DNA of 64,000 nt from Lepidurus packardi (taxonomy: Eukaryota > Arthropoda > Branchiopoda > Notostraca > Triopsidae). Positions 1,557 through 23,011 of the stretch are shown piece after piece (position 1 is the stretch's first letter; every line of letters begins with the position of its first letter). Location of the stretch: the NCBI GenBank assembly GCA_023053545.1, contig JAKZAN010000002.1:6122375-6186374 (forward strand), written 5' to 3'. Position numbers and translations under genes: made by a program. The notes beneath the pieces are model-generated. The model did not search any database. It saw only the letters and a list, made by a program, of their open reading frames with translations, and was not told the origin of the DNA.

Positions 1557-3803
1557 TTAGTTGGCTTCTTCTAATAGGCAAAGCTTGGCCACCGGACGGG
1601 TTAGCTCGCCATGCCCGGTTCTCACCACTGCGGCTCGAACCGTTCCATCCGACCCGGGCAATGGTTTCACGATTCTTCCTAGAGGCCAATGCCCGCGCGG
1701 GGTGTTGTTGTCCACAATGATGACTATATCACCCTCCTGTAGATTTCGCTTGGGAGACATCCATTTTTGACGTTCTATTAGGTTGGGCATATATTCCTTC
1801 ATCCACCGTCTCCAGAAGTGGTCAGTCAGAGCTTGTACGGCTCTCCATCGTCTTCTGGACGTTATCTCTTCTGGATTGATCACGTCTGGTGGTATATTCG
1901 GATTTGCCCTACCGAGCAGAAAGTGGTTGGGCGTTAAAGCCTCCGGTTCGTGGGGGTTGACGCTAACGTGTGTTAGTGGTCTTCCGTCTAAGAGATGCTC
2001 CACTTCTCTCATTAGGGTGTGGAGGGTTTCCTCTCTCAACGTTTGCTTCGCTAGCACGTGGCGCAAGGCAGTTTTCGCGGATCGCACTACTCTTTCCCAA
2101 ACGCCCCCGAAATGAGGTGCCGCTGGTGGGGAGAAATGCCAGTCGATCTTTTTCTGAGACATGTAATCGCCGATGATGTTCTGATTCCAATTTTCCACTG
2201 CTTCTCTCATTTCGCGTTCGCCTGCGGTGAGATTTGTTCCATTGTCGCTGAAACAGGACGCCGGGACCCCACGGCGACTGATGAACCGGCGGAACGCGAG
2301 CAAAAACGAGTCGGTGTCTAGAGAGTGGCTGATTTCTATGTGGACCGCTCGCGTCACAAGACAAGTGAAGAGGCAGCCGTACCTTTTCTCTTGCCTACGA
2401 TAAATTGTGACGGTAAACGGTCCAAAATAGTCGATGCCGACGTTGGTGAAGGGTGGGAGGAAAGCTTCCAACCTTTCGGCAGGCAATGCTGCCATGAGTG
2501 GATTTTCCGGATTTGTTTTGCTCTTCCGACAAACCAGACATCGGCCGATAATTCCTCGGATGAGGACTCTTCCACGAGGGACCCAATAACGCTTTCTTAC
2601 TTCGCTAAGAGTGCGGTCAATACCAGCGTGGTAGAATCGACAGTGGATGTCCCTGGCGATGATAACCGCCAGGGCACTGTGCTGCGGAATTAGGATGGGG
2701 TGTTTGATATCGAAGGAGACATTGCTATGTTCTAAACGCCCACCAACACGCATTACTCCCTTGTCGTCGAGGAAGGGAGTAAAGGTGGCGATCTGTGAAT
2801 TGGGGGGCAGCGCACGTTTGCTTTTCAGGTTGTTAATCTCGTCCTTGAAGCTATGATATTGTACTGCGCGAATGCAGACAATTTCCGCCATTTGGAATTC
2901 GCTGGCCTTCAACCACGTTTGATGGCGCGTTGTGGGATCTCGACATCGCTCAACAAAGCGCAGAACGTAGGCGGCAGCCCGTAGCAGGGTCGTGAAATTC
3001 GACTTTCGTTCTACTAGTTTAACGAGAGGATTAACTTCGAAGGCTGCTACCGCACCAGTCCAATTGGCGGCCGAGATTTCGGGGTCATTCTGGTCCGGCT
3101 CGGGTAAACTTGAGGTCACTGGCCATGCATGTTCCGGTAATAGAAGAAACGACGGACCCGTGTACCACCGGTGAGATGACGTCAGGGATTCTGACGGTAG
3201 ACCGCGGCTGCAATCATCTGCCGGGTTTAACACACCTGGAATATGATGCCAGTGATGCCCGTTCGAGCTTTCCAAGATTTCGCCGACCCGGTTTCCGACG
3301 AACGCTTGAAAGCGGCAGGTTTTTGAATGAATCCACTGCAGGACCGTTTGTGAATCGGTCCAGAAAAACACTCTGCTAATCGGCAGCTGTAGTTCGTTGA
3401 GAATCGAATTGGCAAGACGTACGGCGACGACAGCCCCTTGCAACTCGAGGCGAGGAATTGAGAGATGGCGCAAAGGGGCTACCCGCGACTTGGCCAGTAT
3501 GAATCCGACACGTACTGCTCCGTTTGTGTAACGGAATCGAAGGTAACCTACCGCACCGTATCCGGTCGTTGAAGCATCGGAGAATAAATGCAGCTGGATA
3601 TCATCTGGGTTAGCCGAAGATCTGACGCATCGTGGAATATCTAGTCGTTCCAGTAAGGGTAGGTTTTCTGCCCATGCCTGCCATCGCGTAATAATTTGGG
3701 GAGGGAGAGACTCGTCCCAACCGAAATTACCTCTCCAAATGTCCTGCAGCAGGATTTTCGCCGAAAGTACCACAGGGGCCAGAAATCCCATCGGGTCGAA
3801 TAT
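1557..3803 (-). pseudogene. BEL/Pao retrotransposon pol, 3' two thirds
   Basis: This is the downstream part of a BEL/Pao polyprotein, about 749 codons without a stop. In order it shows the segment after the reverse transcriptase (IFDPMGFLAPV), the Pao RNase H-like region (HLFSDAST, WTDSQTVLQWI), an integrase zinc-binding region (HCRFYHAG...CLVC), an integrase core with D (GIDYFGPF), D (CFSDNGTN) and E (GVWERVVRS), and the C-terminal DUF5641-type region ending LLEEAN. The gag, protease and RT parts are missing because an LTR (3804-4211) has been inserted at IFDP. An in-frame stop lies just across the junction, so there is no natural start codon. The integrase half is open and looks young, but the copy is dead. 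Confidence 0.9.
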
Positions 3804-4211
3804 TGTCACGGTCTAATTTTGCCAGGGCATCAATCTGGCAAGGGATTAGAGTAATGTTCGGGAAAGGTGGATTTATAGAACTGTATTTGGGAAAATTACA
3901 GTGGTAAAGTGAGGGGGACAAACACTACATGAAAAACAGAGGACTAGCACATAAAACACGACTACCCTTCAGCACCTCAACGCTCGACTCTCTTAGACTC
4001 TAACTAAGAACAATTTGCAAGGAAGCTTACTCCCCACCATTCGCCAAGCTGGGCATGCAATCCCACGCAGCTCCGGTGCTCCATCCGACACCATGTGCGT
4101 CAGCAGGATTGCAATTCAGCACATGGGGTCAGGGATCAACTTAGATTAGCAAAGATCAGCAAAGATTAGTAAAGCGTGAGAAAAGCAAGCAATGCGAAAT
4201 GTAGCCGTGAC
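3804..4211 (-). repeat. LTR of the F-type env retroelement (3' LTR)
   Basis: This 408-bp block starts TGTCACGGTCTA and ends TAGCCGTGACA, that is TG...CA with inverted ends of about 11 bases. On the minus strand it is preceded by a purine tract (GCGGGCCGGGGGTAA) and by the env stop at 4458, so it is the 3' LTR of the element reading leftward. It abuts BEL pol at 3803, so the retroelement jumped into BEL. The matching 5' LTR was not found in the window. Confidence 0.7.
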
Positions 4212-4227
4212 ATTACCCCCGGCCCGC
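4212..4227 (-). other. Polypurine tract next to the LTR
   Basis: On the minus strand the bases directly before the LTR read as a G-rich purine run ending GGGGGTAA. This is the expected position and composition of the primer site for plus-strand DNA synthesis in an LTR element. Confidence 0.55.
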
Positions 4228-4457
4228 TTTCGAACGTCCCGGTCGAAACAAGCGGACCGCGCGTCTTCAGCGCTATCTAGAGGCAATGCCAGGCGAAATT
4301 TAATGACAAGCTTGCAAGCACATGGTTAAAATCAGCAAGCGTACACACCTAATAGTTGATAACTACTGGTTAAACACTAGACTAAACCGTGGATACTTTG
4401 GGGTAACTTGTACTGAGGGGAACAAGTACGACACTACCACTACACTGATTGTCTTGA

Positions 4458-5639
4458 TTACTGGTCGGCGGTTCCCTCCATGGTCAGCGGGAGTACGCCT
4501 CCATGGTCACGCATCCTTACTTCTATGGCTCGCACACGTCGCACAAGTGCGTCGATGTTGTAGCTGGGTCTGCCCAAGGCGGCTGGCTCATGGAGCCGTA
4601 AGGTTGCCTCCAATTGCTCGATCCGTGTCAGGAGCGCTTGGTCACGTCCAGCGGTTACTCGCCATAGGCACCAACTCAGGATGGCGACGATCACTAGTAC
4701 TACCACGGTAAACGACCCGGAGATGGTTATCGAGGGATAGCTGATATCGCCCCATACGCCGGGAGCTTCCTCGAAGAGATTTCTGCGCTGCTTGGCTGCT
4801 TTCTGGAAGGTATCCCACGTAGTTCTCCAGCTGGCGGCTACGTCACCACTCTCCTTCTCCAGTGTTTTAATGTGATCGGCTATTTTCGGGTCTACCCAGG
4901 TAAGGTTGGCCGTGGGCAGGTGTGGTTGGGTCAGGTTAGTTGGAAAAGCGGACAAAGACCAAGCCGGCATGCGTGAGGTGATATTGGACTGCCCAAAAGA
5001 GTCCAAGGAAGCGGCTAAAATCCACTCCGGGCTGATGGCCAAGCATGCAACAGGTACCTCGATGATTCCTATCCCCTGGATTTTTATAGTTTTGGTCTTC
5101 CCTTCCCCATTCCCTTGTAGGTTTGGGTGGCAAGCAATTGTCACTCCAATGGCCTTACCGGTTGAGTACAACCATTTACGGGGCCCCACCCGGACCAAGG
5201 ATGAAGCATCCGCCTTCCTAACCTCTTTTCGGCAAAACCGCTCCGTCTGGTTAGCCTCGTCTTTCATTAGGGCGGCCATACAGGAAGGTCCCGTAGCTGT
5301 TCGTCTGAACTCCCGGACTAGGGGGCATACCTTGATCTCGTAGGCCTTGCACGAGTCGATTTCGACCTGACTTAGTTCCACGTACATCTCTCTATCCCCG
5401 GAAACGGCCAAGTACTCGGGTAGGTCTAAGATTTCGCTCACGAAACTGCTATCAGGTATTGGGACGGGTACATGCAGAACGCGGAATAATTTAAGGTGGT
5501 ACTGCGATTCATACAAGGGGACCTCGATAAATAATCGTAACTTCCCTTGGTAGGCAGCGGAGTGGACGCGACACCGTTGGTAGATCGCCCAGAGACCACC
5601 CAGGTCTCCCACCGCGATCCCCACCCACCCCTTTGGCAA
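4458..5639 (-). pseudogene. F-type env, C-terminal half (stalk and anchor)
   Basis: This open frame of 393 codons is the downstream half of the env gene whose first half lies at 5647-6576. It contains Cys-rich ectodomain sequence, N-glycosylation motifs (NQT, NIT, NLT), and a membrane anchor near residues 305-330 (VVVLVIVAILSWCLW). A basic, coiled cytoplasmic tail follows. It begins with a non-ATG codon and is out of register with the upstream half by one base, so the env is split by an indel near the A6 run at about 5650. The architecture matches baculovirus F/errantivirus-type class I fusion proteins. It lies directly upstream of the polypurine tract and 3' LTR. Confidence 0.7.
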
Positions 5640-5646
5640 GGCGGCG

Positions 5647-6576
5647 TTAATTTTTTACTAAAATCTCGGCAAAGTCAGTGGGGGGGACTAATAAGGGGGA
5701 CAGCACCCCCGCTGCGGCGGCCACCATGCCATCGCTTAATGCGTTCAGATACGACTCGGCCCACGCAAGGGCCCCCTGTATGGCCCGTTCCCATATGTCG
5801 ATGTGAATGTCGAAGAGCCATGCTTCGTGATTATCCCTAAACTGAGCTCTCACTACTTCCTGGGAAAGCCGGAGTCCCGCCTCCAGTCCTTGGTAACCTT
5901 GGCTAAGCTTCTGCAGGATCTCGAAGTTCTTTTGGGTTCTCCAAAAAGTGCTGTTAATTAGGGTTGCCTGGTCGGTCACTAGGTGGCTCACAAGGTCTTC
6001 CTTTTTATTTATTTCGGTTAGCCGGCGGTTAATGACCTCGAGGTCCCCATGCGAGGCTGTCCCGAAAAGCCATTTCAGCGCCTCGCCCCCGGCATCTATA
6101 AGGCCTCTCTTGTTACGTCCCGTAGCCGGATTACTGGTCAACCGCTCTAGCGCTACTGGCCGGAGTTGGAGTTCAGTCAGGTGCTTGCGATAACTTTCTA
6201 TATCCCTCTGGACTCGGGTGTGCAAGTCGTGCATAACCCCTTGGTTATGGGTGAATTGGTCTGCATAACGTCTCTCGATCCATAGGGCCTCGCCAGTTTT
6301 CACCAGCAGCTGGTTCAGCGGGTTTGGATCTACATCGGTGACCATGACCCACCTCGCTCCCGGGAAGATGACCTGGCCCTCATCTACAAAGTAGACGCCC
6401 TCGTGCACTCCTCCGTCCTGCATTGCGCCTAGAACGCCCCCGCAGAGGGGCAACACGAATAGCACCATCCACCAGATCACGCGCATACCTGTGTGTTGAA
6501 AATTTGCGTTAGAAAGTGACTGGCAAGAAACTGGGGAGAAAACGACATCGTGTAACTGCGGCTTCCCCTGAGCCAC
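5647..6576 (-). pseudogene. F-type env, N-terminal half (cleavage site, fusion region)
   Basis: This ORF of 309 codons carries the hallmarks of a baculovirus F-like envelope protein. There is a likely signal peptide at residues 31-51 (start at Met31 is plausible), an F2-like segment, a furin-type site RNKR at 154-157, then a hydrophobic fusion segment beginning GLIDAGGEALKWLFGTA, and a heptad-rich helix. The family is known from insect errantiviruses and from baculoviruses; function here is by homology only. The frame ends at 5647 just after an A6 run, and the rest of the protein continues in another frame at 5639. I read this as a mutation, not programmed frameshifting. Confidence 0.75.
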
Positions 6577-6628
6577 TCGTGTATTTTTGATACAGTTTTT
6601 AGGGAAGGGGAGGACGGGTTAGGGGGGT

Positions 6629-6913
6629 CTAAGACCCCACGTCATCTTCGGGCTGACTCCTCCTCCAGCAGCACCCTAGTACGGTCCTTACCACCCGTCG
6701 GCTCCTCTCAAGCCGTGCGACCCTGGCTTCCCGCGACGCCAACTGCCCCATCGCTCGGCGGGCAATCTCACCAACTTGGGCAAGTTCGCTACTGGCCGCC
6801 CCATCTCGCGAAGCTTGACTCATCCCTAGACGGTCCAGAGCCTCCTGAACGGCTTCGAGCCGGGCCTCGGCGCGTCGCCCAGTCTCCTGGAGGGTTTCCT
6901 CCATCTCCTCCAA
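6629..6913 (-). pseudogene. Coiled-coil ORF upstream of env, cut by insertion
   Basis: This 94-codon open frame is rich in Glu, Arg, Ala and Leu in heptads (ETLQETGRRAEARLEAVQEAL). It could be the C-terminal end of a gag-like or other internal protein of the env-bearing element, since it lies 52 bases upstream of env on the same strand. The frame stays open past the ATG into the poly(T) block at 6924-6946, so the gene was probably longer and was interrupted by the poly(A)-tailed insertion. No family recognised. Confidence 0.4.
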
Positions 6914-6923
6914 CCTTGGTTTC

Positions 6924-6946
6924 TTTTTTTTTTTTTTTTTTTTTTT
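6924..6946 (-). other. Poly(A) tail of a retroposed chimeric transcript
   Basis: A run of 23 T on the plus strand, that is A23 on the minus strand, follows the nucleoprotein-like ORF by about 97 bases and is preceded by GATGAGTAGTAT. This is what a copied, polyadenylated mRNA leaves at its 3' end. The flanking target duplication of a LINE-type insertion was looked for near 10.1 kb and not found. Confidence 0.65.
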
Positions 6947-7043
6947 ATACTACTCATCGTCGTCCTCGTGATCGGGATTGTAAAGATGAGCCATAACCGC
7001 GTTTTTAACTAAAGGAAATTTTATTGGTGGTTGTAAGGGTGGA

Positions 7044-8399
7044 TTAGCACCTGCCTAACAGGTTCCCGTAGGTTCTTTTACCCCCATTACATAGTTCAAC
7101 ACTGATCATCTCGTCATTGTAAGTCAGTGATGCACGTGCGTCGAGCGTGTCACCGTCTGCAGCTAGTGCGGCTCGGTGTTCCAAATACTTATCGATTAAA
7201 TTCTGAACGATTGTCCTTTGCCACCCAATATCATTGAAATCCATGAAAGTCCTTGATTCCGCCAGGGATGATTTACCCAGAATTTTGATACAAACCATTG
7301 ATCCCACCTTCGCCAATTTTGGGAACTTGGTCGCAGCTACCTCATTTCGCTCCCTCATTGTACCGAAGCCCCCATAAGGATCAATCTTGTTATCAGGAAG
7401 AGTTAGCTTGTCAAGGACGACCATAAATGATGCCCATTCATCTGGAAACAGTCCATTAATTTTCTTCCAGGGAAAATCTCGGACACCTTTCATGGCCTCC
7501 AATAAGGTTATCACACTTGTCATTCCAAAGAACTTACACTGGTTCACCAGACTCCTCAGCCCGAGAATTTCAGGTGGTGATGATCTAATTAGTTCTTTTA
7601 TAGCATCACGCATGTAGAGTCTTGATTTTCCCTGACCAGTATGAGCGTAAATGGTTGAAAATACAGTGGGATCAGCAGGCCATGGAATGTCCGCCCTCGT
7701 GAGGTTACACTGGGATACGTATTTGTCGAATTTTTTACGATTGGAAGAGCCTGAATAAATCAGTGCGTACCACAGGTAGAAGGTGGATGGTTTCACCCAC
7801 AGTATTTTCGTTATACGTTGATGAGCCGTGGATGTTATAGTAAACACTGTGATGTGGTTCAATATTTCAGCAAGAGGGATAGCTGTTCCCAGCACGGCAT
7901 CTATATCAGCATAGGTTCCACAGTCTAGGGCTAAATCAGAGTCAGGGGGAGTCCTTTCCGCTGCAGATTTGCGGGAGTTATTGACGATCATTAATGCCAG
8001 GTCAGAGGAGATGTTAGTCGGGATGGTTTTTCCGTTAAGTGCTCTGACTCCGTTCTTTATGGCATTGAACATCTTAGTGATATATTCACGAGCTGCTGCT
8101 TGTGACAAATACACCATTCGGTCGTAGTGAACAGGCCCGGTGTGCTCATAGAACCAGGCTACAGCAAGTTCTGCCTCAAGAGGGGATGCCCCATATGTAT
8201 ACACACAGTTAAGCCATGTATAGAATGCCAACGCACGAGTCTGGTACAACGTTGTCATCTCCGTAAAATCATCAAGACCAAGATGGTAGAGCGCAAATGG
8301 TGTTTGGATAGCTTCTCCAACTATCATTCGTCGAAAATGTTGCGCCTTAGTGATCTGTACAGTTGCCCAACGCCCGGGCGTGTACCCTGTTTCATCCAC
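7044..8399 (-). pseudogene. Endogenous viral element: nucleoprotein-like (negative-strand RNA virus)
   Basis: This uninterrupted frame of about 451 codons matches no transposon domain. Length, helical composition and the segment WKKINGLFPDEWASF followed by DPYGGFG suggest the nucleoprotein of a non-segmented negative-strand RNA virus; by impression the chuviruses (Jingchuvirales) are closest, but no search was run. A nucleoprotein coats genomic RNA. The frame has no ATG at its left junction (first codons GTG GAT GAA), and the first Met is about residue 25, so the viral ORF looks 5'-truncated where it meets gypsy sequence at about 8405. It ends in a 3' UTR and A23, like a viral mRNA. The lack of stops suggests recent insertion or selection. 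Alternative: an unknown retroelement protein. Confidence 0.55.
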
Positions 8400-12208: not shown

Positions 12209-13444
12209 ATGTATAAATCATTGTTAACACTCAGTGCTAGCAAAATTGTTGAAGACTTCTTGCTTGAAGAGCCAGACTTTGTTGTTGAAGATGAAGAAGA
12301 TTCGGATGATGAACTGAATTCAGTTTCAGTAACTTCGTTTGCAGTTGCATGCCAACTGGTGACTTCCACGCAATGTTTATACCGCGTTAGACAGACTGGG
12401 TAATTTGTAAACAATTCTGTAGTTCACTAGTAAAAGCCATTTTACAGGTATCTTCAAGACGTATTACCAAAGTACTCAGAAGCTGAATTTTTTAGTCATT
12501 TTAGAATGACTCGCTCAACGTTTTCGCACCTTGTGTCATTTTGTGAAGCGAACTGTTCCGGAATTGCGTCAAATGGAGGTTTTGAACCTATGGCATTCGA
12601 CGAAATGTGCTATATAACTGTATGGTACTTGGCCAACCAGTGTTGCATGAGGGAGATCTCGGACAAGTTTGATCGCACCGTATCCTCAGTATGGCGTGCA
12701 ATTGATCGTATTACTTACATTCTTGAGCGACACCAAGAAGCATTTATTAAGTGGCCTGGAATTGAAGAACAGGAGTCCGTCGCAGACCAGTTTTTCTTAC
12801 GAGCTGGGTTTCCTGGGGTGATCGGCGCTATTGATGGAAGTCATATTAGGATTGATGCACCTTCGCTTCACCAGAAGTCATACCTGAATAGAAAATTCAG
12901 CCATTCGGTTATACTTCTAGCAGTGTGTTTGCCGAATCGAGCATTTTCTTACATTCATGCGGGATTTCCGGGAAGCGTCCATGATGCGCGTGTGTTTAGG
13001 AACACTGGGCTGTATAATAAAGCTTCCCTTGATCAACGCAGCATGTTTAAAAGTTCGCGATATCACATCCTCGGTGATTCGGCATTCCCTTGCCTGGAGT
13101 GGCTGATTCCAGGAATTAGGAACTCAAGCGTGAACAGTCGGGAGAAAAGAAAATTCAATCAAAAGCTGTCGGCAACGAGAGTCGTTATAGAAAATTCTTT
13201 TGGGGATTTAAAAATGGTTTGGCGAAGGTTGCTCCATGTAAAAGCTAAAATTAGTAGGGTTGTGCGAATTCTTGTGTCCTGTTGTGTTTTACATAACTTA
13301 CGTATCAAGTTCGATGATTATGAACCTCTTTGTTACAATAACGATGTTGACAGTACTTCAAGTGTAGATGATGAAGTGGACCAAGGAAATGAAAGAAGTG
13401 GTACTGAAAAAAGGAACACCCTTGTACAGCAGTTAGGGCGCTAG
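12209..13444 (+). CDS. Harbinger transposase (HARBI1-like, DDE)
   Basis: Two exons, 12209-12399 and 12448-13444, joined across a 48-bp GT-AG intron, give about 395 residues. The N-terminal part is acidic (EDEEDSDDE), followed by a helix-turn-helix-like segment (MREISDKFDRTVSSVWRAIDRI). The DDE_Tnp_4 core shows D in GAIDGSHIRI, D in SVHDARVFRN and E in VIENSFGDLKMVWRRL. It cuts and joins the transposon ends, normally with the help of the Myb/SANT partner encoded on the opposite strand. The start was chosen as the first ATG in the open frame; splicing is needed to link the exons. All catalytic residues are present. Confidence 0.9.
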
Positions 13445-13506: not shown

Positions 13507-14683
13507 CTACTCGGAATCCGTGCTTTGACGCCTTTTCTTGCCTTTTTTTCCAACATTTTTTATGGCATTCACCAAGTCTTTAGCGATCTCCACCTTCTGC
13601 ATGTCCAGTTCACGTCTGTATCGTGTCTCTTCTTCAATTCTTGTATTTCGTCTTTCTTCTCGCTCCTAAGAGAAAAGGTTTAATTTTTTTTCAAATATAT
13701 TAAGTTTTACCTTTAGCATTTCCATTTTATTTTCCTCCACATCCATTAAGCCCTTCAATATATTCAGTACGCGCGCATTTTGATCAGTAGACCGATTTCT
13801 TCGAGCCAGGCGCGGAATAGGAGAAGCGTCCTCTTCCCCCGTATCTGTTTCTTGAGACGTTGACGGTGTCGGGTTTTCCGTTGGGACTCGAACAGACGGA
13901 AGCAAGGAGTCAGAAACTGCAGCTGGCGAAATACTGTGATTTCCCTCCACAAAAGACAAAAGTATATATTTCTATACTTTTAAAAAGGACAAATAATAAA
14001 TAGTTTTACTTAGAAAAGCGTGGATTTCATCGTAATATTGTGGTGGAGCAACATGGCCATTTCCAGTCTGGTTCTTTGCTTTATCCACGAATGTCGAGTA
14101 CGTGGATTTCATCTTTCGCCATTGTGCATCGACCTTCTTCCAGGCGTCATTATTGAGAGGCAACTGTACTCCTTCGCTTCTTAACTGCTCAGCAACCGCA
14201 GTCCAGAAAATTTGTCTTGAAGTTTTCTTGTTTTCCATTTCGCTGCGCCTTGTTGTTAAAATTTCGATCAGCTTGAGACGCGCTTCATGATCTCTCTTCT
14301 TCGCATCCGTAGATCTTTTATTTGTCCAGAGATCGCCATCGCCATCGTTGTCAATAACGTATTCAACGGGTGGTAGACTTTCCTCCTGCGTAGCATCTAT
14401 AGATTCTTCATTTTCTTTGTTCTCATCCGGGTGATCCTCCACAATCGTTGGATCGTCTTCCGGCTCGTTCCCTAGCAGATGAATGGGCACCATTTCTGCT
14501 GGAACGCTTAAAGTCTTGACCGTACCTGTTGTTATTAAGTATGAAATAAATTAATATGAATGCAAAATCAATTATTTAATTTTACTTACCGTTTGATAAA
14601 TGAACTTGAAATATAACACGTTCATTGATGCGCTCAATAATTGTACCATGTTCGAAGACATCTTCTAGTGTAAAATTATTCAT
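13507..14683 (-). CDS. Harbinger Myb/SANT-like partner protein
   Basis: This multi-exon gene has exon 1 at 14683-14590, exon 2 at 14525-14010, a third exon ending at 13711 (start uncertain, about 13940), and a last exon at 13665-13507. Exon 2 holds the trihelix/Myb-SANT-like DNA-binding domain (REIFWTAVAEQL-type region and WKKVDAQWRKMKSTYSTF). Exon 3 is Ser/Pro/Glu-rich. The last exon is a charged helix (EREERRNTRIEEETRYRREL) with a basic nuclear-localisation-like end (KKGKKRR). In PIF/Harbinger such proteins bind the transposon ends and bring the transposase into the nucleus. The exon 2-3 join could not be phased confidently. Confidence 0.75.
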
Positions 14684-15472: not shown

Positions 15473-17353
15473 TTACATCCCTCCACCCATTGAAAAAGTT
15501 GCCGTCCCGGCAACAGGATTCGTCCTACAGACGAAGGCTGAGGTTCGGGAAATCAGGGTCTCCGTTGGCTCTAGTTCTATACAACGGTGGAGGGGGTACG
15601 GTATTAGGGCGTAGACAGGGAGATTGATTGGGGTGGTGATTATAGCTGGGTTGTGGGGTGGCTGTCGAGGGAGCATTTCTACAGTCTCTTCGTCTTGGCG
15701 TCGGTGACGGCGTGTTTTTGGTTTTACGGTTTTGCAGACGGACGATAGGCAGGGTGTGAGTTTCACAAGGATTGATAACACTATGAGGCCAGCAATGGCT
15801 GCTGTACCTATAATTACCCCGTTTTTGAGGTAGTTCGTCCATTGGAACATCCCTTCAAAATTGTTTTTCGCCTTTAAATCAAACACCAAGTCGCTTATCG
15901 TGTGGGTTGCTGATCCGTCAACCGTCTGCATTAGGTCCATAAGGATGTTGATGTTCTCCTGTTGTTCTTTGTGGTAAGCCGGGTTGATGTTTGCTAGGAG
16001 GTTGAAAAGTGTGGCATCTAGTGATAAATTGAAACTGCGGATAAGTTGATAGGATGCTGGTAGCTTAGTTGCCTTGGCTGGGGCCCACTCGGTTCCGTTG
16101 TATCGGTACGCCGCGCCATTGAAGTTTACTAGGCCGTTCTGCCAAAAACAGTTTTTGAAGGGGTAAAGTGTAAATCCATCTTTTCCAATTGTATAGTTTC
16201 CGGTTCGTGGTTGTGGTCCACAAGAGGTGATTTCCGTAGTGAAGTTGCGTACTTCCTTAGTGCATTTCTGGAGCAGCGCGGTCCCTCCGAACGGCAGAAT
16301 TCTTTCGCAATCATTAAAGTTGAGCAGCTGTGCTGCGAGGATTCCACTAAACTGCGCGATTAAGGGTACCAGGGCTGCTCTATTTTGTGTGGACATGCAG
16401 TTATTAATTTCTATTTCCTTTGCCAATTGATTTGCGCGGAGCACTGTTGAATCTTGAATGTACTGGAGATGGGCTGCTAGTCCTTCGGTGGCTGAAATAT
16501 TCCGTTCCGTCTGTTTTGGGCTGGCGATTTTACTGATGGGGTAGAGCTGGATGTAGTGCTTCGGCATTCCAACGACTTGTAGTACGCCGGACTTTCCGCA
16601 GTTTAGGACAGGGGTCTTTTCTACAAAAAATTCGAGTTGATTGTTATTATCCTGTACCCTGCCGTATTTGCTTGTAGTTGCAGAGTAGTAAAGGGCGATG
16701 CCGAGGGCAATTGTGACGTTGGTACAGGTATCCGTTTTTGTTTCGATGTCCGTAGGCTTCCATACTACTGTGATGTGGTTTGCTGTTACGGATCCGGCCT
16801 CGTATGAGGCATTTGTGGTACCAAAAGGGGTGTCGACTGAGCAGGTTGGGCATTGCTTGTGAAGTGTGATTTCTTCCATGAAGCAACTTGCGGTGGTGTA
16901 CGTTTGCGTGGTCATCCAGACTGGGTCTCCTTTTGGCTGCTCGTCAAAAACCCATTTGTTCCCTTCACGGTACATCTTGTTACCATGGCAAGTGAGCGTT
17001 TGCACTAGATGGTAGCACGCGTCTGTGGAGGTGTCCATTGGTTGCTTATCCGTCATGGTGTCGTGGCCTCCGAAGAAAAACGAGTCGATTTTCAGTTGTC
17101 TTTGCCATTGGCCGCAGGCGTATCCTTTGAAGGTTGTTGGAGCTTCTAAATCTTTAGTTAGGATGTAGTTCATTGTAGTAGGTGGTAGGTCGCGATCTCT
17201 AGGGTTACACTGTGGCATGTTGTTAAGATTGATGAAATTTAAGGTTTTCGGGTTGCTACAGTTGCAGATAGTGATGTCGATGGCTAGCGTCGTTGACAAA
17301 AATCTAGTGCTGACGAAGAAGATGAAGAAGCCGTAACATGGTGTTTGAAACAT
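15473..17353 (-). CDS. Env: viral-type fusion glycoprotein (possible chuvirus-type)
   Basis: The ORF from Met at 17353 gives 626 residues without a stop. Residues 1-24 are a hydrophobic signal peptide ending LSTTLA. A long Cys-rich ectodomain opens DITICNCSNPKTLNF and has several glycosylation sites. One membrane anchor lies near the C terminus (VIIGTAAIAGLIVLSIL), followed by a basic tail. It is unlike the furin-cleaved F-type env at 4.5-6.6 kb. By impression the NCSNP opening resembles glycoproteins of chuviruses and relatives, which some arthropod LTR elements have acquired; a search is needed. The frame is also open upstream, but a pyrimidine tract ending AAATACAG directly before this ATG marks a splice acceptor, as expected for env. 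Confidence 0.7.
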   Translation of the reverse strand: MFQTPCYGFFIFFVSTRFLSTTLAIDITICNCSNPKTLNFINLNNMPQCNPRDRDLPPTTMNYILTKDLEAPTTFKGYACGQWQRQLKIDSFFFGGHDTMTDKQPMDTSTDACYHLVQTLTCHGNKMYREGNKWVFDEQPKGDPVWMTTQTYTTASCFMEEITLHKQCPTCSVDTPFGTTNASYEAGSVTANHITVVWKPTDIETKTDTCTNVTIALGIALYYSATTSKYGRVQDNNNQLEFFVEKTPVLNCGKSGVLQVVGMPKHYIQLYPISKIASPKQTERNISATEGLAAHLQYIQDSTVLRANQLAKEIEINNCMSTQNRAALVPLIAQFSGILAAQLLNFNDCERILPFGGTALLQKCTKEVRNFTTEITSCGPQPRTGNYTIGKDGFTLYPFKNCFWQNGLVNFNGAAYRYNGTEWAPAKATKLPASYQLIRSFNLSLDATLFNLLANINPAYHKEQQENINILMDLMQTVDGSATHTISDLVFDLKAKNNFEGMFQWTNYLKNGVIIGTAAIAGLIVLSILVKLTPCLSSVCKTVKPKTRRHRRQDEETVEMLPRQPPHNPAIITTPINLPVYALIPYPLHRCIELEPTETLISRTSAFVCRTNPVAGTATFSMGGGM

Positions 17354-18154
17354 CTGTATTTGAAGAATACGAGAAAAGGATAAGAACAACAACAACGACA
17401 AAAAAAATTTTGACATATAAAAAAAAAATTCAGTCCCAGATTTCGTCAGGTGTCTGTGTCTGGGACTTTCAAATTTGCAATTTCGGTGAAGGGTGTGTTG
17501 GGGCTTGGGTTGCGACTGCCAGGGGGGTGGCATAAGGGAGGGTTTGGTACTCGTGTACACTGCTAATAGGTATAATCGGCGAAAGGACAAAAGGTTTGGC
17601 TCTGTAGAACCCAGCATAGCGAAATTGACAAAAATATGTTGCGTGATCGAAGGCGTCGGATCGGTGGATGTGGTGCAGCCTTGAGTGTGGACACGGTAGG
17701 AATGTGTCCTGGAAGTCGGGGTGTTTGTTGTGAATTGGTAGATATGTAGGTCGTTTGACAGGCCGAAGTGGTCGGGTCTTGGTAGTCCGTGGTCTGGACA
17801 TACCTGCCGCTCGAACCCTTTCAGGAGGATTGTGTTGCTCTCATACGGGAGCTTATAAAAAACGGTCGGTGTAGGTGGCGGGTGCACGTCCGGGTGGTTG
17901 TATCCCAGGCTTTTTACGCTCTCATAATGCATGAGGGCGTGGGCGTACGGGCAGTCGTCTATGATGTGGCGCATGTACGCCTCCGTCGGGATGTGGTGGG
18001 TTGCGTCGAACCCGCAGACGTGCAGGCCCGTACCTACTCTCGAATTTCCATGGGTTTTGCGGCACTCCGCGAGGTGTTCTGCCGCCTCCGCTAGCATGAA
18101 GCTATCGCCGCAAGCGTAGGGGCAGATGTAGACGGAATGGGGGGTGGATCTCAT
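17354..18154 (-). CDS. GTSF1/Asterix-like CHHC zinc-finger ORF inside a retroelement
   Basis: An ATG at 18154 opens a frame running without a stop to the env ATG (267 codons, then continuous with env). The N terminus has two fingers of the U11-48K/GTSF1 CHHC kind. The first is C11-x5-D17-x9-H27-x3-C31, with Asp where the first His is expected, followed by RKTH. The second is C47-x5-H53-x9-H63-x4-C68, one residue longer than usual in the last gap. The tail (70-230) is Pro/Thr/His-rich. GTSF1/Asterix proteins have this double-finger N terminus and assist Piwi-class Argonautes in silencing transposons; CHHC fingers bind RNA. It lies between pol (ends 18507) and env in the same orientation. Whether it is made alone, spliced, or fused to env is unknown. 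Confidence 0.65.
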
Positions 18155-18506: not shown

Positions 18507-21500
18507 CTATTCCCGGGGTTGGTTTGTAGGGGCACTATATAGTGGGGGTGGGGGTTCTGAAGACCACGGGCTAGTGTCGCGGCAAGTTTTTAGTCTGTTT
18601 ACGTGGACGATTTCTGTTTTTAAAGTTTTTGTGTCTCTAATTCGAACATTTACTGTAGAAGTAAACTCGATGATTCTGAAGGGACCTAGCCATTTTAAAT
18701 CTAGTTTCCTAGCTAATCCAGGTTTTGTCATTGGATTATTTAAGAAGACTTTTTGACCAACAGTGTATGCTACTTCTTTTGAATACCGATCGTAATAAGG
18801 TTTTTGATTTTCTGTTGCTATTTGGAGATTTCTACCGGCTACTTCCCATGCTGAAGTGAGGCGTGCTAACATTTCTGCTTTGTAATCTACCGCTAATGCA
18901 TAACTCTTCCGAGGTTGTGTCATTAGCGTGTCGGTTGGTAGTGTAGGGTCCCTACCGTAAAGGAGAAAAAATGGGGATTCTAAACTGGAGGATTGTAGCG
19001 ATGTTCTGTATGCGAACAGAACGTATGGGATGTGTGAATCCCAATCCTGTTGTGATTTTTCAACATAATGTTTCAATAAGGAAATTAAAGTTTTATTGAA
19101 CCTTTCTGTCAACCCATCTGTCTGCGGGTGATAAGCAGTTGTGCGAACCTGTTTGATTTCGAGAAGTTTGCAGATTTCTGCCATTAGCTGGGACATGAAA
19201 TTAGTGCCTCTATCTGAGAGTAGAATACGGGGTGTACCATGGCGAGCTATGATTTCTTCCACAAAAAGTCTAGCTATAGTGTCTGCTTTCTGATCGGGTA
19301 TCGCAAATGCTTCTGGCCATTTGGTGAAATAATCTGTAAAGACAACTATATACTTGTTACCTCTGTAGGTCTGTGGTAAGGGGCCTATAACGTCTACGGC
19401 AATACGTTCCATAGGCGCCGAAACCGGTTCCAACGGAACCATAGGGGCTGGCGCTGTACGAATAGTATCCTTGTGTCTTGCACAGGATTCACAGGATTTG
19501 CAGTATTGTTTAATTTCAGAATACATTCTAGGCCAATAAAAACGCTGCCTAACTTTTTCGTGTGTCTTTTGGAAAGCTAAATGTCCTGACAGTTTGTGAT
19601 CATGTAGGGACACCATTATCTCCTTCCTGATAGCCTCGGGAGCTACTATTTGTTCTGTAATTTCTTGTGACTTTTTAATTTGAAGTAGGTGTAGGAGTAA
19701 CCCGTTTTCGTCTAAAATAAAATTTTCTAGTGAATATAGCCATGCTGGGTGCTTAGGGCTATTATCCTGTAATTCTCCGTTTTCTAGATAGTATACAATA
19801 GCTGAACAAAAGGGGTCTTCTAACTGAAGTTCGCGTAAGGTGGCGGTATCAAACGTATCACTGTTTGATATTGCATGGACAGGAATTCGGGATAGACAGT
19901 CGGCATTGCCGTGTTTAACACCGGGACGGTATTTGATTTCCATATCGTAATCTTGAAGTTTAAGTGACCATCTTGCCAATTTAGACGAGCTGTCCTTGTT
20001 GTTCATGAGCCATTTTAACGGGTTGTGGTCTGTAACTACTTTAAAATGTCTGCCGTATAGGTAAGGATGAAAATGTTTAACTGCAAATATAATCGCTAAA
20101 GCTTCTCTTTCGACCGTGGCGTAACGTGATTCGGTATCACTTAGAGTTTTGCTAGCGTAAGCAATAACTTTTTCTTGGCCGTTATGAGTTTGGCTTAACA
20201 CAGCGCCTAGTCCTGTGTCACAGGCATCTGTGTAAAGTATGAATGGTATTGAAAAATCTGGGTAAGCTAAGATAGGGCTACTCATAAGTAATTCTTTTAA
20301 AGTGGTAAAAGCTGAATGTTCTTTGTCTGTCCAGTTAAATTTTATGTGTTTCTTGGTTAGTTTATTCAACGGTCTTGCTATACGCGCGTAGTCTTTGATA
20401 AATCGCCTGTAGTATCCTGCTAAACCTAGGAAGGAACGATTTTCCTTTACGGATTTTGGTGTCGGGTAGTTTTTAACGGCTGAAATCTTTTCTGGGTCAG
20501 GTTGAACTCCTTCTGCGGAGACAATGTGACCTAAATATTTAACTAAAGGTTTGCAAAAATTACATTTCTTGGCTTTTAGTTTTAAGCCTGCGGCTCGTAG
20601 TCTAGAAAAAATTTCGCGGAGGTGAACAATGTGTTCAGGGAACGTTTTGGAAAAAACTATAATGTCGTCTAAGTATACTAGCACGTTCTCAAGTCTATCC
20701 TTGGCGGCGAGCATTTTATCCATTAGCCTTTGAAAAGTTGCTGGGGCGTTAGATAACCCAAAAGGTAAACAATTAAACTCGTAATGACCAAAATTTGTCG
20801 TAAATGCTGTCTTGTACCTATCTTCCTCTGCTACCTCGACTTGCCAGTATCCTGATGCTAAGTCCATAACTGAAAAATAACGTGCCTTTCCCAACTTATC
20901 CAAGGTATCGTCGATTCGTGGTAAGGGGTACACATCTCTCCTTGTAACTGCATTAATTTTACGAAAATCTACGCAAAACCTTTGTGTACCATCTTTCTTT
21001 TTAACTAAAACTACAGGTGCTCCCCAAGGAGAGGAAGAAGGTCTAATGATATCTCTATGTAACATTTCGTCCACATGCTGTCTAATAACCGCTTTTTGTG
21101 CTTCTGGCGCTCTGTACGGACGCTGGTAGATAGGATTGGAACCCCTGGTGTGAATGGTATGTTTAACAAGTTTTGTACGGCCTAAATCGTTATCATCTTT
21201 TGCAAAAATATCCCGAAATTCAATCAATAATTTTAATAGCTCATCCCTGTGCGAAGGGGTAACATTCGACAGGTCGAAGTTCTCGAGTAACGGATACTCT
21301 GCACTTGGAAGTGAGTGCACTGCTGCAATCACGGACACTCTGGCGTTACAAACTCTTCCTATAACTGTGTTTCGTTTCAACACAACATCGTTAGGACCAT
21401 TATTCCAAAACGAGACTGGGATTTTACCGCATCCCTTCCCTATTACGATTGCTGGTTCGCTACAAACGAATTCGTCGTCTAGCTGAACAGGCTCGAAAAT

Positions 21501-22049
21501 AATTTCCGCTCCATGCGAGTTATCGTGCTCGGATTTGGCAGTAGCAATGACTCTACTGTACGCGGGTATTTTCACTTGCTTATGCAGTTGCACTCTGGAA
21601 CTGTCCCTTGCAAGGCCTACCACATTAATCTCTTTCTGCATGCTTATTTCCATTGACGCGCCGTCAATAACTATGCTCTGGCTCTGAATCGCATCCATAC
21701 CGAGGATGATGTCGTGAGCTAACTCTTCTGCTACGTAACATTCAACTTTGAATTTACGGCCTTGAATTTCAAAAGGTAATTCATAACAACCGAAGACATT
21801 CAGGTTCTCTCCTGTTACTGATTTCAAGATTGTATCAGTTTGAACTGGCTCTCCTGCAATGTCCGGTGTCAGCAAATTAAACGCTTGCTTATTCATAACT
21901 GTAACGCCTGCACCTGTGTCAACTAAACATCTAAATGGGATTGATCCTATAATAACTTTTGCAAAAATTCTACCGGGGGGTCTCATAAAAAGGTTTTTCC
22001 TTCTCCTACCTGGTGCCAACTGACCTTTTCGTTGCGCCACAGTCAGCAC
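18507..22049 (-). CDS. pol: Gypsy pol polyprotein (PR-RT-RH-IN), uninterrupted
   Basis: The frame runs for 1180 codons. In order it has an aspartic protease (CLVDTGAGVTVMN, about residue 43), a reverse transcriptase (VLVKKKDGTQRFCVDFRKI, LPFGLSNAPATF, YLDD), an RNase H (LYTDACDTGLGAVLSQ), an integrase zinc finger (HDHKLSGH...CKSCESCARH), and an integrase core with D (VDVIGPLP), D (LLSDRGTNF) and E (GLTERFNKTL). The end is a short basic chromodomain-free tail. All catalytic residues are visible. It starts in the -1 register relative to gag with a short overlap; there is no ATG at its beginning, so it should be made as a gag-pol frameshift product. It supplies replication and integration for the element that also carries the GTSF1-like ORF and env. 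Confidence 0.95.
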   Translation of the reverse strand: MLTVAQRKGQLAPGRRRKNLFMRPPGRIFAKVIIGSIPFRCLVDTGAGVTVMNKQAFNLLTPDIAGEPVQTDTILKSVTGENLNVFGCYELPFEIQGRKFKVECYVAEELAHDIILGMDAIQSQSIVIDGASMEISMQKEINVVGLARDSSRVQLHKQVKIPAYSRVIATAKSEHDNSHGAEIIFEPVQLDDEFVCSEPAIVIGKGCGKIPVSFWNNGPNDVVLKRNTVIGRVCNARVSVIAAVHSLPSAEYPLLENFDLSNVTPSHRDELLKLLIEFRDIFAKDDNDLGRTKLVKHTIHTRGSNPIYQRPYRAPEAQKAVIRQHVDEMLHRDIIRPSSSPWGAPVVLVKKKDGTQRFCVDFRKINAVTRRDVYPLPRIDDTLDKLGKARYFSVMDLASGYWQVEVAEEDRYKTAFTTNFGHYEFNCLPFGLSNAPATFQRLMDKMLAAKDRLENVLVYLDDIIVFSKTFPEHIVHLREIFSRLRAAGLKLKAKKCNFCKPLVKYLGHIVSAEGVQPDPEKISAVKNYPTPKSVKENRSFLGLAGYYRRFIKDYARIARPLNKLTKKHIKFNWTDKEHSAFTTLKELLMSSPILAYPDFSIPFILYTDACDTGLGAVLSQTHNGQEKVIAYASKTLSDTESRYATVEREALAIIFAVKHFHPYLYGRHFKVVTDHNPLKWLMNNKDSSSKLARWSLKLQDYDMEIKYRPGVKHGNADCLSRIPVHAISNSDTFDTATLRELQLEDPFCSAIVYYLENGELQDNSPKHPAWLYSLENFILDENGLLLHLLQIKKSQEITEQIVAPEAIRKEIMVSLHDHKLSGHLAFQKTHEKVRQRFYWPRMYSEIKQYCKSCESCARHKDTIRTAPAPMVPLEPVSAPMERIAVDVIGPLPQTYRGNKYIVVFTDYFTKWPEAFAIPDQKADTIARLFVEEIIARHGTPRILLSDRGTNFMSQLMAEICKLLEIKQVRTTAYHPQTDGLTERFNKTLISLLKHYVEKSQQDWDSHIPYVLFAYRTSLQSSSLESPFFLLYGRDPTLPTDTLMTQPRKSYALAVDYKAEMLARLTSAWEVAGRNLQIATENQKPYYDRYSKEVAYTVGQKVFLNNPMTKPGLARKLDLKWLGPFRIIEFTSTVNVRIRDTKTLKTEIVHVNRLKTCRDTSPWSSEPPPPLYSAPTNQPRE

Positions 22050-22051
22050 CT

Positions 22052-23011
22052 CTAGTTTGATTGGTTCGTTCGGCAGTTAGCTGCTATGTGTCCTCGTCTA
22101 CGACATGACCAACATTCAATGTTGGGATTTCGGGGTCGTGACATGCCTTGTGGCCTATCAGTATGGTGGCCTGCGGGGAACCGTGGTTCAAAGCTAGGGC
22201 GTGGTCGGAAGGTGGGGTTTCTAGGGTTGAAGTTGTTCCTGCTTGGGGACTGGAATCTGTTCGTATTTCGTGAGAACTGGTCCGAGAAACGGACTTGTCT
22301 ATCGCCGCTGCGAGATGTGTCGCGATACGGGTTTGAGGGATTGTATGACTTTTGGGATCTATATCGGTTCGGGGATCTATATCCCGAGCTGTTTCGATCG
22401 TACGAGTACGAGTTGGGAGGTCTATTCGGGGTAGTGCTTCTGCTCCTGCGACTGAACGACGGTTCGCTAGTAGTAAGCGCAGCAACAACTGCTGTAAGTT
22501 TTTCGATTTCATTCTGAAGGCTAACATTGTGGGGAACTGCTACTTCGTTAGCTTCTTCTCGAGCTGCAACTTCTATAGCTTCGCGAAGGTTCGCTGGGTT
22601 GGCGCTTAGAACGTAGCGTTTTAAATAAGGAAGAAGTCCTCTGATAAAATTTAGGCGCATGATTTTGTCTAATATTTCGTTCCCAGCTGGGGGGCTATCG
22701 TTTTCGTGGACTCGTCTTGTGAGTGAACGAATTTTGTCTGCAAAATCACGAACTGGTTGTTTTGCTTCCTGATTGCAATTCTGGAGTTTGACTATAGCTT
22801 GTGATTCGTGGTGACTGTCACCGTAGCGTTCGGAGAGAGCTGTTTTGAATTCTGTGTAAGTTGTTGGGCGGGGAGAAATAGTATTGTAATAGGCACCGGC
22901 GCCTCCTTTTAATTTAATTACGGCTACTTTGAGTAGGTGTGGTTCGGACCATCCTATTGTACTACCAATGCGTTCTAAATCTTGGAAAAATCGTCTTACT
23001 GATGCATCGTC
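22052..23011 (-). pseudogene. gag: Gypsy gag, 5' truncated
   Basis: The frame is open from 23011 to the stop at 22052, longer than the first ATG (22660) suggests. The upstream part reads as a retrotransposon gag core (GWSEPHLLKVAVIKLKGGA, YTEFKTALSERYGD). Then comes a Ser/Arg/Tyr-rich linker and a CCHC zinc knuckle near the end (CWSCRRRGHIAANC). Gag forms the particle and packages RNA. At 23012 an in-frame stop and unrelated sequence replace the N terminus and 5' LTR, so this copy cannot package itself. Confidence 0.85.

Follow-up and report, generated by a model that had tools for sequence, protein, structure and literature searches.

Why would a retroelement keep, between its pol and env genes, a reading frame that resembles a component of the pathway that silences it? 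PIWI proteins depend on GTSF1 (Asterix) as an essential cofactor, whose main targets include long terminal repeat (LTR) elements. The question is raised by a Ty3/gypsy element on the minus strand of a 64,000-nucleotide stretch of the Lepidurus packardi genome (assembly GCA_023053545.1, contig JAKZAN010000002.1, positions 6,122,375 to 6,186,374; hereafter the 64-kb window), in which an open reading frame (ORF) with tandem zinc fingers, here named ORF3, lies between pol and env. An original prediction, made from the sequence alone, had taken this frame for a GTSF1-like protein captured or evolved by the element and proposed that it could antagonize the PIWI-interacting RNA (piRNA) pathway or let the element bind its own RNA. 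We are confident that ORF3 is a real, selected gene for a GTSF1-like protein; its action at PIWI is proposed below more tentatively.

ORF3 in sister copies and selection on its reading frame

The tandem finger motif is exactly as first described (C11-x5-D17-x9-H27-x3-C31, then R32-K33-T34-H35 and C47-x5-H53-x9-H63-x4-C68), and its frame starts, as predicted, with an ATG between pol and env (Table 1); it lies on the minus strand, which the original prediction did not state. When we searched the 108.6-Mb genome (344 contigs) with the 97 amino acid domain, we found 22 matches, 15 of them covering at least 91 of the 97 residues, five partial and two distant, and none with an internal stop. At loci L011 and L012 an unbroken, separate ORF of 305 amino acids occupies the same place. 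Its protein (P0001) contains two GTSF1-like double-finger modules, hence four fingers, the second pair reading CPYC...H...C followed by C-x5-H-x9-H-x4-C, and it ends in PDEIWD. This fuller protein, with its two modules and acidic Trp tail, had been overlooked by the original prediction. The tail reads E-[IM]-W-D-stop in 10/10 copies where the pattern was found, and it holds a single conserved Trp. Far from being confined to a single copy, ORF3 is present across the sister copies; most of them have decayed, the common fate of such elements, and two of the 16 copies projected on ORF3 (L011 and L012) are free of gaps and insertions.

The ratio of nonsynonymous to synonymous substitution rates (dN/dS, or omega) indicates that this frame has been kept by purifying selection. 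For module 1, 18 pairs spanning the two main lineages gave an omega of 0.27-0.57; for module 2, 12 such pairs gave 0.12-0.33. Compared within lineage II, module 1 gave 0.28-0.74 (15 pairs), as expected of decaying copies, and the tail gave 0.11 in one pair. These pairwise values share branches and hence are not independent. In a frame control with six pairs for each module, the true frame gave 0.31-0.47 for module 1 (p 2.1e-4 to 6.4e-3) and 0.10-0.28 for module 2 (p 9.6e-13 to 1.1e-3). In the two remaining frames the values were 0.75-2.4 and 0.59-3.0, with stops in nearly all comparisons. This is the pattern of a protein and not of an untranslated intron; the frame-specific selection contradicts the idea that ORF3 is simply an intron of env, though it does lie upstream of the likely env splice acceptor.

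Selection on the frame also bears on an RNA-level reading, in which the captured GTSF1-like sequence would be a source of antisense piRNAs directed at host GTSF1, by analogy with what has been proposed for TART-A and nxf2 (PMC7785250; this and the other papers are cited here from partial text). That precedent favours such a capture, but the ORF3 protein has about 30% identity to host GTSF1 and it is the reading frame that is under selection, so that we consider this account very improbable.

Comparing L011 with L013, we observed that module 1 is nearly identical (synonymous divergence, dS, 0.06) whereas module 2 has diverged (dS 0.70). The copies are therefore mosaics that a single tree would not fit, and we read the contrast as recombination between element lineages.

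Similarity to GTSF1

A phmmer search with residues 1-97 against solved structures found mouse GTSF1 (6x46; E 1e-4), the alignment taking in residues 5-69 and both fingers, and gave weaker matches to the GTSF1 entry 9nhb (E 0.18) and to U11-48K (2vy4, E 0.49); with the 305 amino acid protein as query, mouse GTSF1 aligned to module 2 (E 7.7e-4). A GTSF profile was made of six sequences, namely mouse GTSF1, 9nhb and four host GTSF1-type loci, two of the six being host exon pieces joined end to end, and it was run against 2079 six-frame ORFs from the 64-kb window and loci L009-L030 together with 41,580 shuffled decoys. It matched L010-L013 at E 2.8e-14 to 3.5e-14, in two domains, and the ORF of the studied copy at E 4.9e-8, the best decoy reaching E 0.0019 (15.3 bits). 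Alignment with hhalign gave 96.8% for module 1 and GTSF, 93.8% for module 2 and GTSF and 96.1% for the two modules with each other, where the highest values in 20 column-shuffled controls for each comparison were 0.67%, 6.69% and 0.73%, respectively. Judged by these sequence comparisons, the two modules are homologous to GTSF1 and to each other.

The GTSF1-like relationship was thus borne out by phmmer, profile and hhalign matches across both fingers, whereas the proposed link to the CHHC families did not extend to Pfam: zf-U11-48K (PF05253) failed to match the ORF3 domain at E<=10, no CHHC model appeared in our scans, and a genome-wide search with PF05253 matched seven places, none of them an ORF3 copy. 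We regarded the sub-threshold Pfam matches of ORF3 (zf-CCCH, zf-Di19 and zf-TRAF among them) as noise. Scans of viral contigs with the 305 amino acid protein and with env found no relative. An AlphaFold2 model of the 97 amino acid domain from the studied copy had a mean predicted local distance difference test (pLDDT) score of 40.9 and was unusable, and no fold search was based on it.

ORF3 shares with GTSF1/Asterix (mouse 6x46, 9nhb and host loci L031-L034) the tandem finger pair, the CPY start, the HL..CR between the fingers, the canonical spacing of finger 2 and the acidic Trp tail, with profile similarity in both modules. It differs in being encoded by a retroelement, in having two modules (four fingers) within 305 amino acids where GTSF1 is a small protein with a single pair, in having another residue, close to a Cys, where fingers 1 and 3 would carry their first His, and in its lack of a Pfam CHHC match. 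Because fingers 1 and 3 miss the C-x5-H-x9-H-x3/4-C pattern, we call the protein GTSF1-like and not a member of GTSF1.

The replaced His had been the basis of a further proposal, namely that Asp in place of a zinc ligand in finger 1 would make the protein a decoy or dominant-negative. Fingers 2 and 4 fit the canonical C-x5-H-x9-H-x4-C spacing. Finger 1 has Asp or Gly in place of the first CHHC His, with Gly in L010-L013, and finger 3 has D, N or similar, with a Cys three places after its first Cys. The Cys two places before the replaced His of finger 1 is kept in the aligned copies, the distant L029 and L030 among them; the residue is Tyr in L022 and L023. This nearby Cys could substitute, and from the residues kept a C-C-H-C zinc site is plausible in both odd-numbered fingers; therefore the dominant-negative argument from a missing ligand is undercut.

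The ORF3 of the studied copy is a damaged derivative

In an alignment of nine copies, we found that the studied copy differs from its sisters by a 190-bp deletion, through which finger 3 is lost, the frame is shifted and the remainder is joined to env. Together with small indels, this deletion cost the copy the original second half of ORF3 and its stop, and that is why a frame of 893 amino acids runs into env. The extent first given for the frame therefore stands at its start (18154) but not at its end, since there is no stop near 17354 and the frame continues through env to 15473. What was originally described is a damaged, env-fused derivative of ORF3, a fact that the original prediction had overlooked. 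It might be argued that the fusion is a functional new protein, given that the 893 amino acid frame is open. However, it is the product of a deletion present in one of 16 projected copies, and part of ORF3 is read in another frame, so that we find such a function scarcely credible; a designed fusion was rejected on the alignment of copies.

Distribution of ORF3 among related elements

Close relatives of env longer than 150 amino acids were found at 12 loci, and ORF3 sequence lies just upstream in 11 of them. The twelfth (C4:2578328-2579047) has an open frame of 871 amino acids, is separated by about 5 kb from the nearest ORF3 match on its upstream side, and is possibly another fusion or an interrupted copy. 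At five more distant sister env loci (35-39% identity), possibly representing no more than one or two families, pol and env are nearly adjacent with no GTSF-like segment between them, the best profile match being 7.1 bits (E 0.017 in a small set), below the 15.3-bit decoys. The ORF3 element resembles env-carrying, errantivirus-like Ty3/gypsy elements, these sister loci included, in its gag-pol-env order, LTRs, 4-bp target duplications and T-rich tract before env; it is unlike the sister loci in its ORF3 of about 0.9 kb between pol and env, which was not seen in any of the five inspected. This suggests that ORF3 was gained in its element lineage or lost in the sister env lineage.

Eight loci (L016-L023) represent a short, non-autonomous derivative consisting of an LTR, ORF3 module 1 without a preceding ATG, a protease/reverse transcriptase piece and an LTR, with LTR identities of 98.3-100% in the seven measured. 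G-to-A hypermutation was considered for L021 and rejected (11 G-to-A against 7 A-to-G changes relative to L019; the same LTR start occurs in L010-L013).

Proposed competition at PIWI and its alternatives

For a target of the silencing pathway that carries its own GTSF1-like gene, competition at PIWI would be the most economical account. The ORF3 protein would present a GTSF1-like surface and an acidic Trp tail to PIWI or its target RNA and would take the place of host GTSF1 at PIWI, leaving the silencing step uncompleted. In the published text that we draw on, mouse GTSF1 must bind both PIWI and RNA to speed target cleavage and binds PIWI via aromatic residues after the fingers, three Trp (PMC9385479), and fly Gtsf1 joins the target-engaged Piwi complex (PMC13269885). 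We infer action on the piRNA pathway from what is observed of ORF3: its homology, its position between pol and env, its recurrence, its absence from the five sister env loci inspected, its purifying selection and its acidic Trp tail, in a host that has PIWI-clade Argonaute and GTSF1-type genes. That the protein competes with host GTSF1 by occupying PIWI, or the target RNA, without passing on silencing seems to us possible at a little under even likelihood; that this doubled homologue binds target-engaged PIWI instead of host GTSF1, blunting piRNA silencing as a protein-based counter-defence of a transposable element, we put forward with slightly more reserve.

Several observations weigh against this competition. 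The Pfam CHHC models fail to match ORF3, its odd-numbered fingers are without the canonical first His, no use could be made of the structural model of module 1 (mean pLDDT 40.9), and the frame is free of gaps and insertions in only the two copies named above. There is one tail Trp in ORF3, compared with the three used by mouse GTSF1 (PMC9385479, in part). Selection, moreover, indicates a protein function without telling which.

The main rival is that ORF3 encodes an accessory protein of replication that binds RNA or transfer RNA (tRNA), with a primer, packaging or nucleocapsid-like role, and that it has put GTSF1-type fingers to a new use in which PIWI is not the target. Binding of tRNAs has been reported for GTSF1, and tRNA primers are needed by LTR elements (PMC9539491, in part); the element does have a primer-site-like stretch immediately after its LTR, and the canonical spacing is kept in the even-numbered fingers. 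Yet the acidic Trp tail is left unexplained, as is the way in which the sister env elements do without ORF3, and we regard such a role as unlikely, if worth serious consideration. The location of ORF3 immediately upstream of the env acceptor would also suit an accessory protein that regulates expression of the element or export of RNA, or one that helps env, whose likeness to GTSF1 would reflect a reused zinc-finger fold with no link to piRNAs or primers. Complex retroviruses commonly encode small accessory proteins that bind zinc, which counts in favour of this possibility, but the resemblance covers both fingers, the linker and two modules, more than a metal-binding pattern, and we think it improbable.

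Organization of the element and its surroundings

Table 1. Features of the ORF3 element in the 64-kb window (coordinates in the window).
Feature	Position	Strand	Remarks
pol of Ty3/gypsy type	18507..22049	-	Protease, reverse transcriptase, RNase H, integrase (gypsy order); Pfam
gag remnant	22052..23011	-	Zinc-knuckle ORF 22052-22660; N-terminal part to 23011
ORF3 module 1 (GTSF1-like double finger)	17951..18154	-	ATG at 18154
ORF3 finger 1	18062-18124	-	Studied copy
ORF3 finger 2	17951-18016	-	Studied copy
ORF3 stretch past module 1	17730..17950	-	Frame still that of ORF3; the 190-bp deletion is its end
Remnant of ORF3 second half	17430..17729	-	Finger 4 and PDEIWD-stop tail left, finger 3 mostly deleted; largely out of frame with module 1; overlaps ORF 17469-17801
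T-rich tract and CAG	17354..17420	-	Directly before env ATG (17353); likely env splice acceptor, splicing inferred
env-like ORF	15473..17353	-	ATG 17353; N-terminal hydrophobic and C-terminal transmembrane-like segments
893 amino acid open frame	15473..18154	-	Deletion joins ORF3 module 1 to env in frame
3' LTR, first 290 bp	15477-15199	-	LTR positions 1-290
3' LTR, remainder	11920-11615	-	LTR position 288 onward

The LTRs of the element start with TGTAAGG and end with ATCACA. They are identical over 612 bp at L012 and in 615 of 617 positions at L011, and the 4-bp target duplications at L011 and L012 are GTGT and ATAA. At L010 the identical stretch is 860 bp and extends beyond the LTR, which suggests a tandem arrangement; at L013 only 151 bp align (98.7%). 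Within the 64-kb window the only LTR recovered is the interrupted 3' LTR, which is split by a PIF/Harbinger-like transposon with a DDE_Tnp_4 transposase ORF (12506-13444) and a MADF-like ORF (13972-14493). The overlap of three LTR positions between the two parts could be the target duplication of that insertion.

The env of the ORF3 element had no match in Pfam, including Baculo_F, and its best PDB match (E 0.54) was rejected. Unlike this env, the other env-like ORFs in the window, at 4458-6576, do match Baculo_F. They lie in the minus-strand region 1557-8399, which carries a BEL/Pao pol piece (Peptidase_A17, DUF5641) along with two such env-like ORFs. A 451 amino acid ORF at 7044-8399 on the same strand had no Pfam match at E<=0.01.

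Host PIWI and GTSF1 loci and distant relatives of ORF3

A genome search with PF02171 gave 16 host Piwi-domain matches, and the one locus tested belongs to the PIWI clade (275 bits to Siwi, the top-scoring Argonaute-clade entry reaching about 91). Very similar PIWI-type segments are encoded at L038, L041 and L043, each on a contig of its own, possibly recent PIWI duplications or assembly duplicates. Host GTSF1-type fingers were read at four loci, L031-L034. Open segments downstream contain ENWDDE (L034) and DECWDDE (L032), which we take to be the tails of host GTSF1-type genes, the joining of exons being presumed.

Two further loci, L029 and L030, were rejected as host GTSF1 genes: they have the CPYxC pattern of ORF3 and look degenerate, each lacking one finger Cys, and their scores with the GTSF profile are no better than that of the best decoy. 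Together with L082 they are best read as fossil relatives of ORF3 (C4:2446623, C6:4262895 and C3:5440549 for L029, L030 and L082, respectively); their origin could lie in older families, now fossil, or in host paralogues that have decayed. The neighbourhood of L029 and L030 yielded no gypsy LTR and no pol, env or gag piece, and that of L082 no pol, env or gag piece. A cuticle protein (PF00379) lies next to L029, a sign of an arthropod genome.

ORF3 beside other extra genes and counter-measures of transposable elements

Extra ORFs in LTR elements are already known, as are counter-measures of other kinds by transposable elements. Bdelloid rotifer LTR elements have likewise acquired a third ORF, but those described in the portion of PMC5408684 that we cite are env-like or encode a GDSL esterase/lipase or a DEDDy exonuclease, and are not GTSF1-like. 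With VANC anti-silencing proteins, as far as our sources describe them, the proposed role of ORF3 shares an action of the element against host silencing; unlike ORF3, VANC is found in plants and acts on DNA methylation. In TART-A, part of a piRNA-pathway gene (nxf2) was captured by a transposable element, a likeness to ORF3, but the action proposed there is mediated by piRNAs and not by an encoded cofactor-like protein (PMC7785250, in part). We found no retroelement-encoded GTSF1 in open-licence PMC full text, a coverage that leaves subscription papers and bioRxiv largely outside, and this is weak evidence of novelty.

A four-finger GTSF1-like protein encoded by a retroelement is unusual even if ORF3 serves replication. 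With an element that keeps a GTSF1-like protein of its own, counter-defence against piRNAs at the protein level would become open to direct test.
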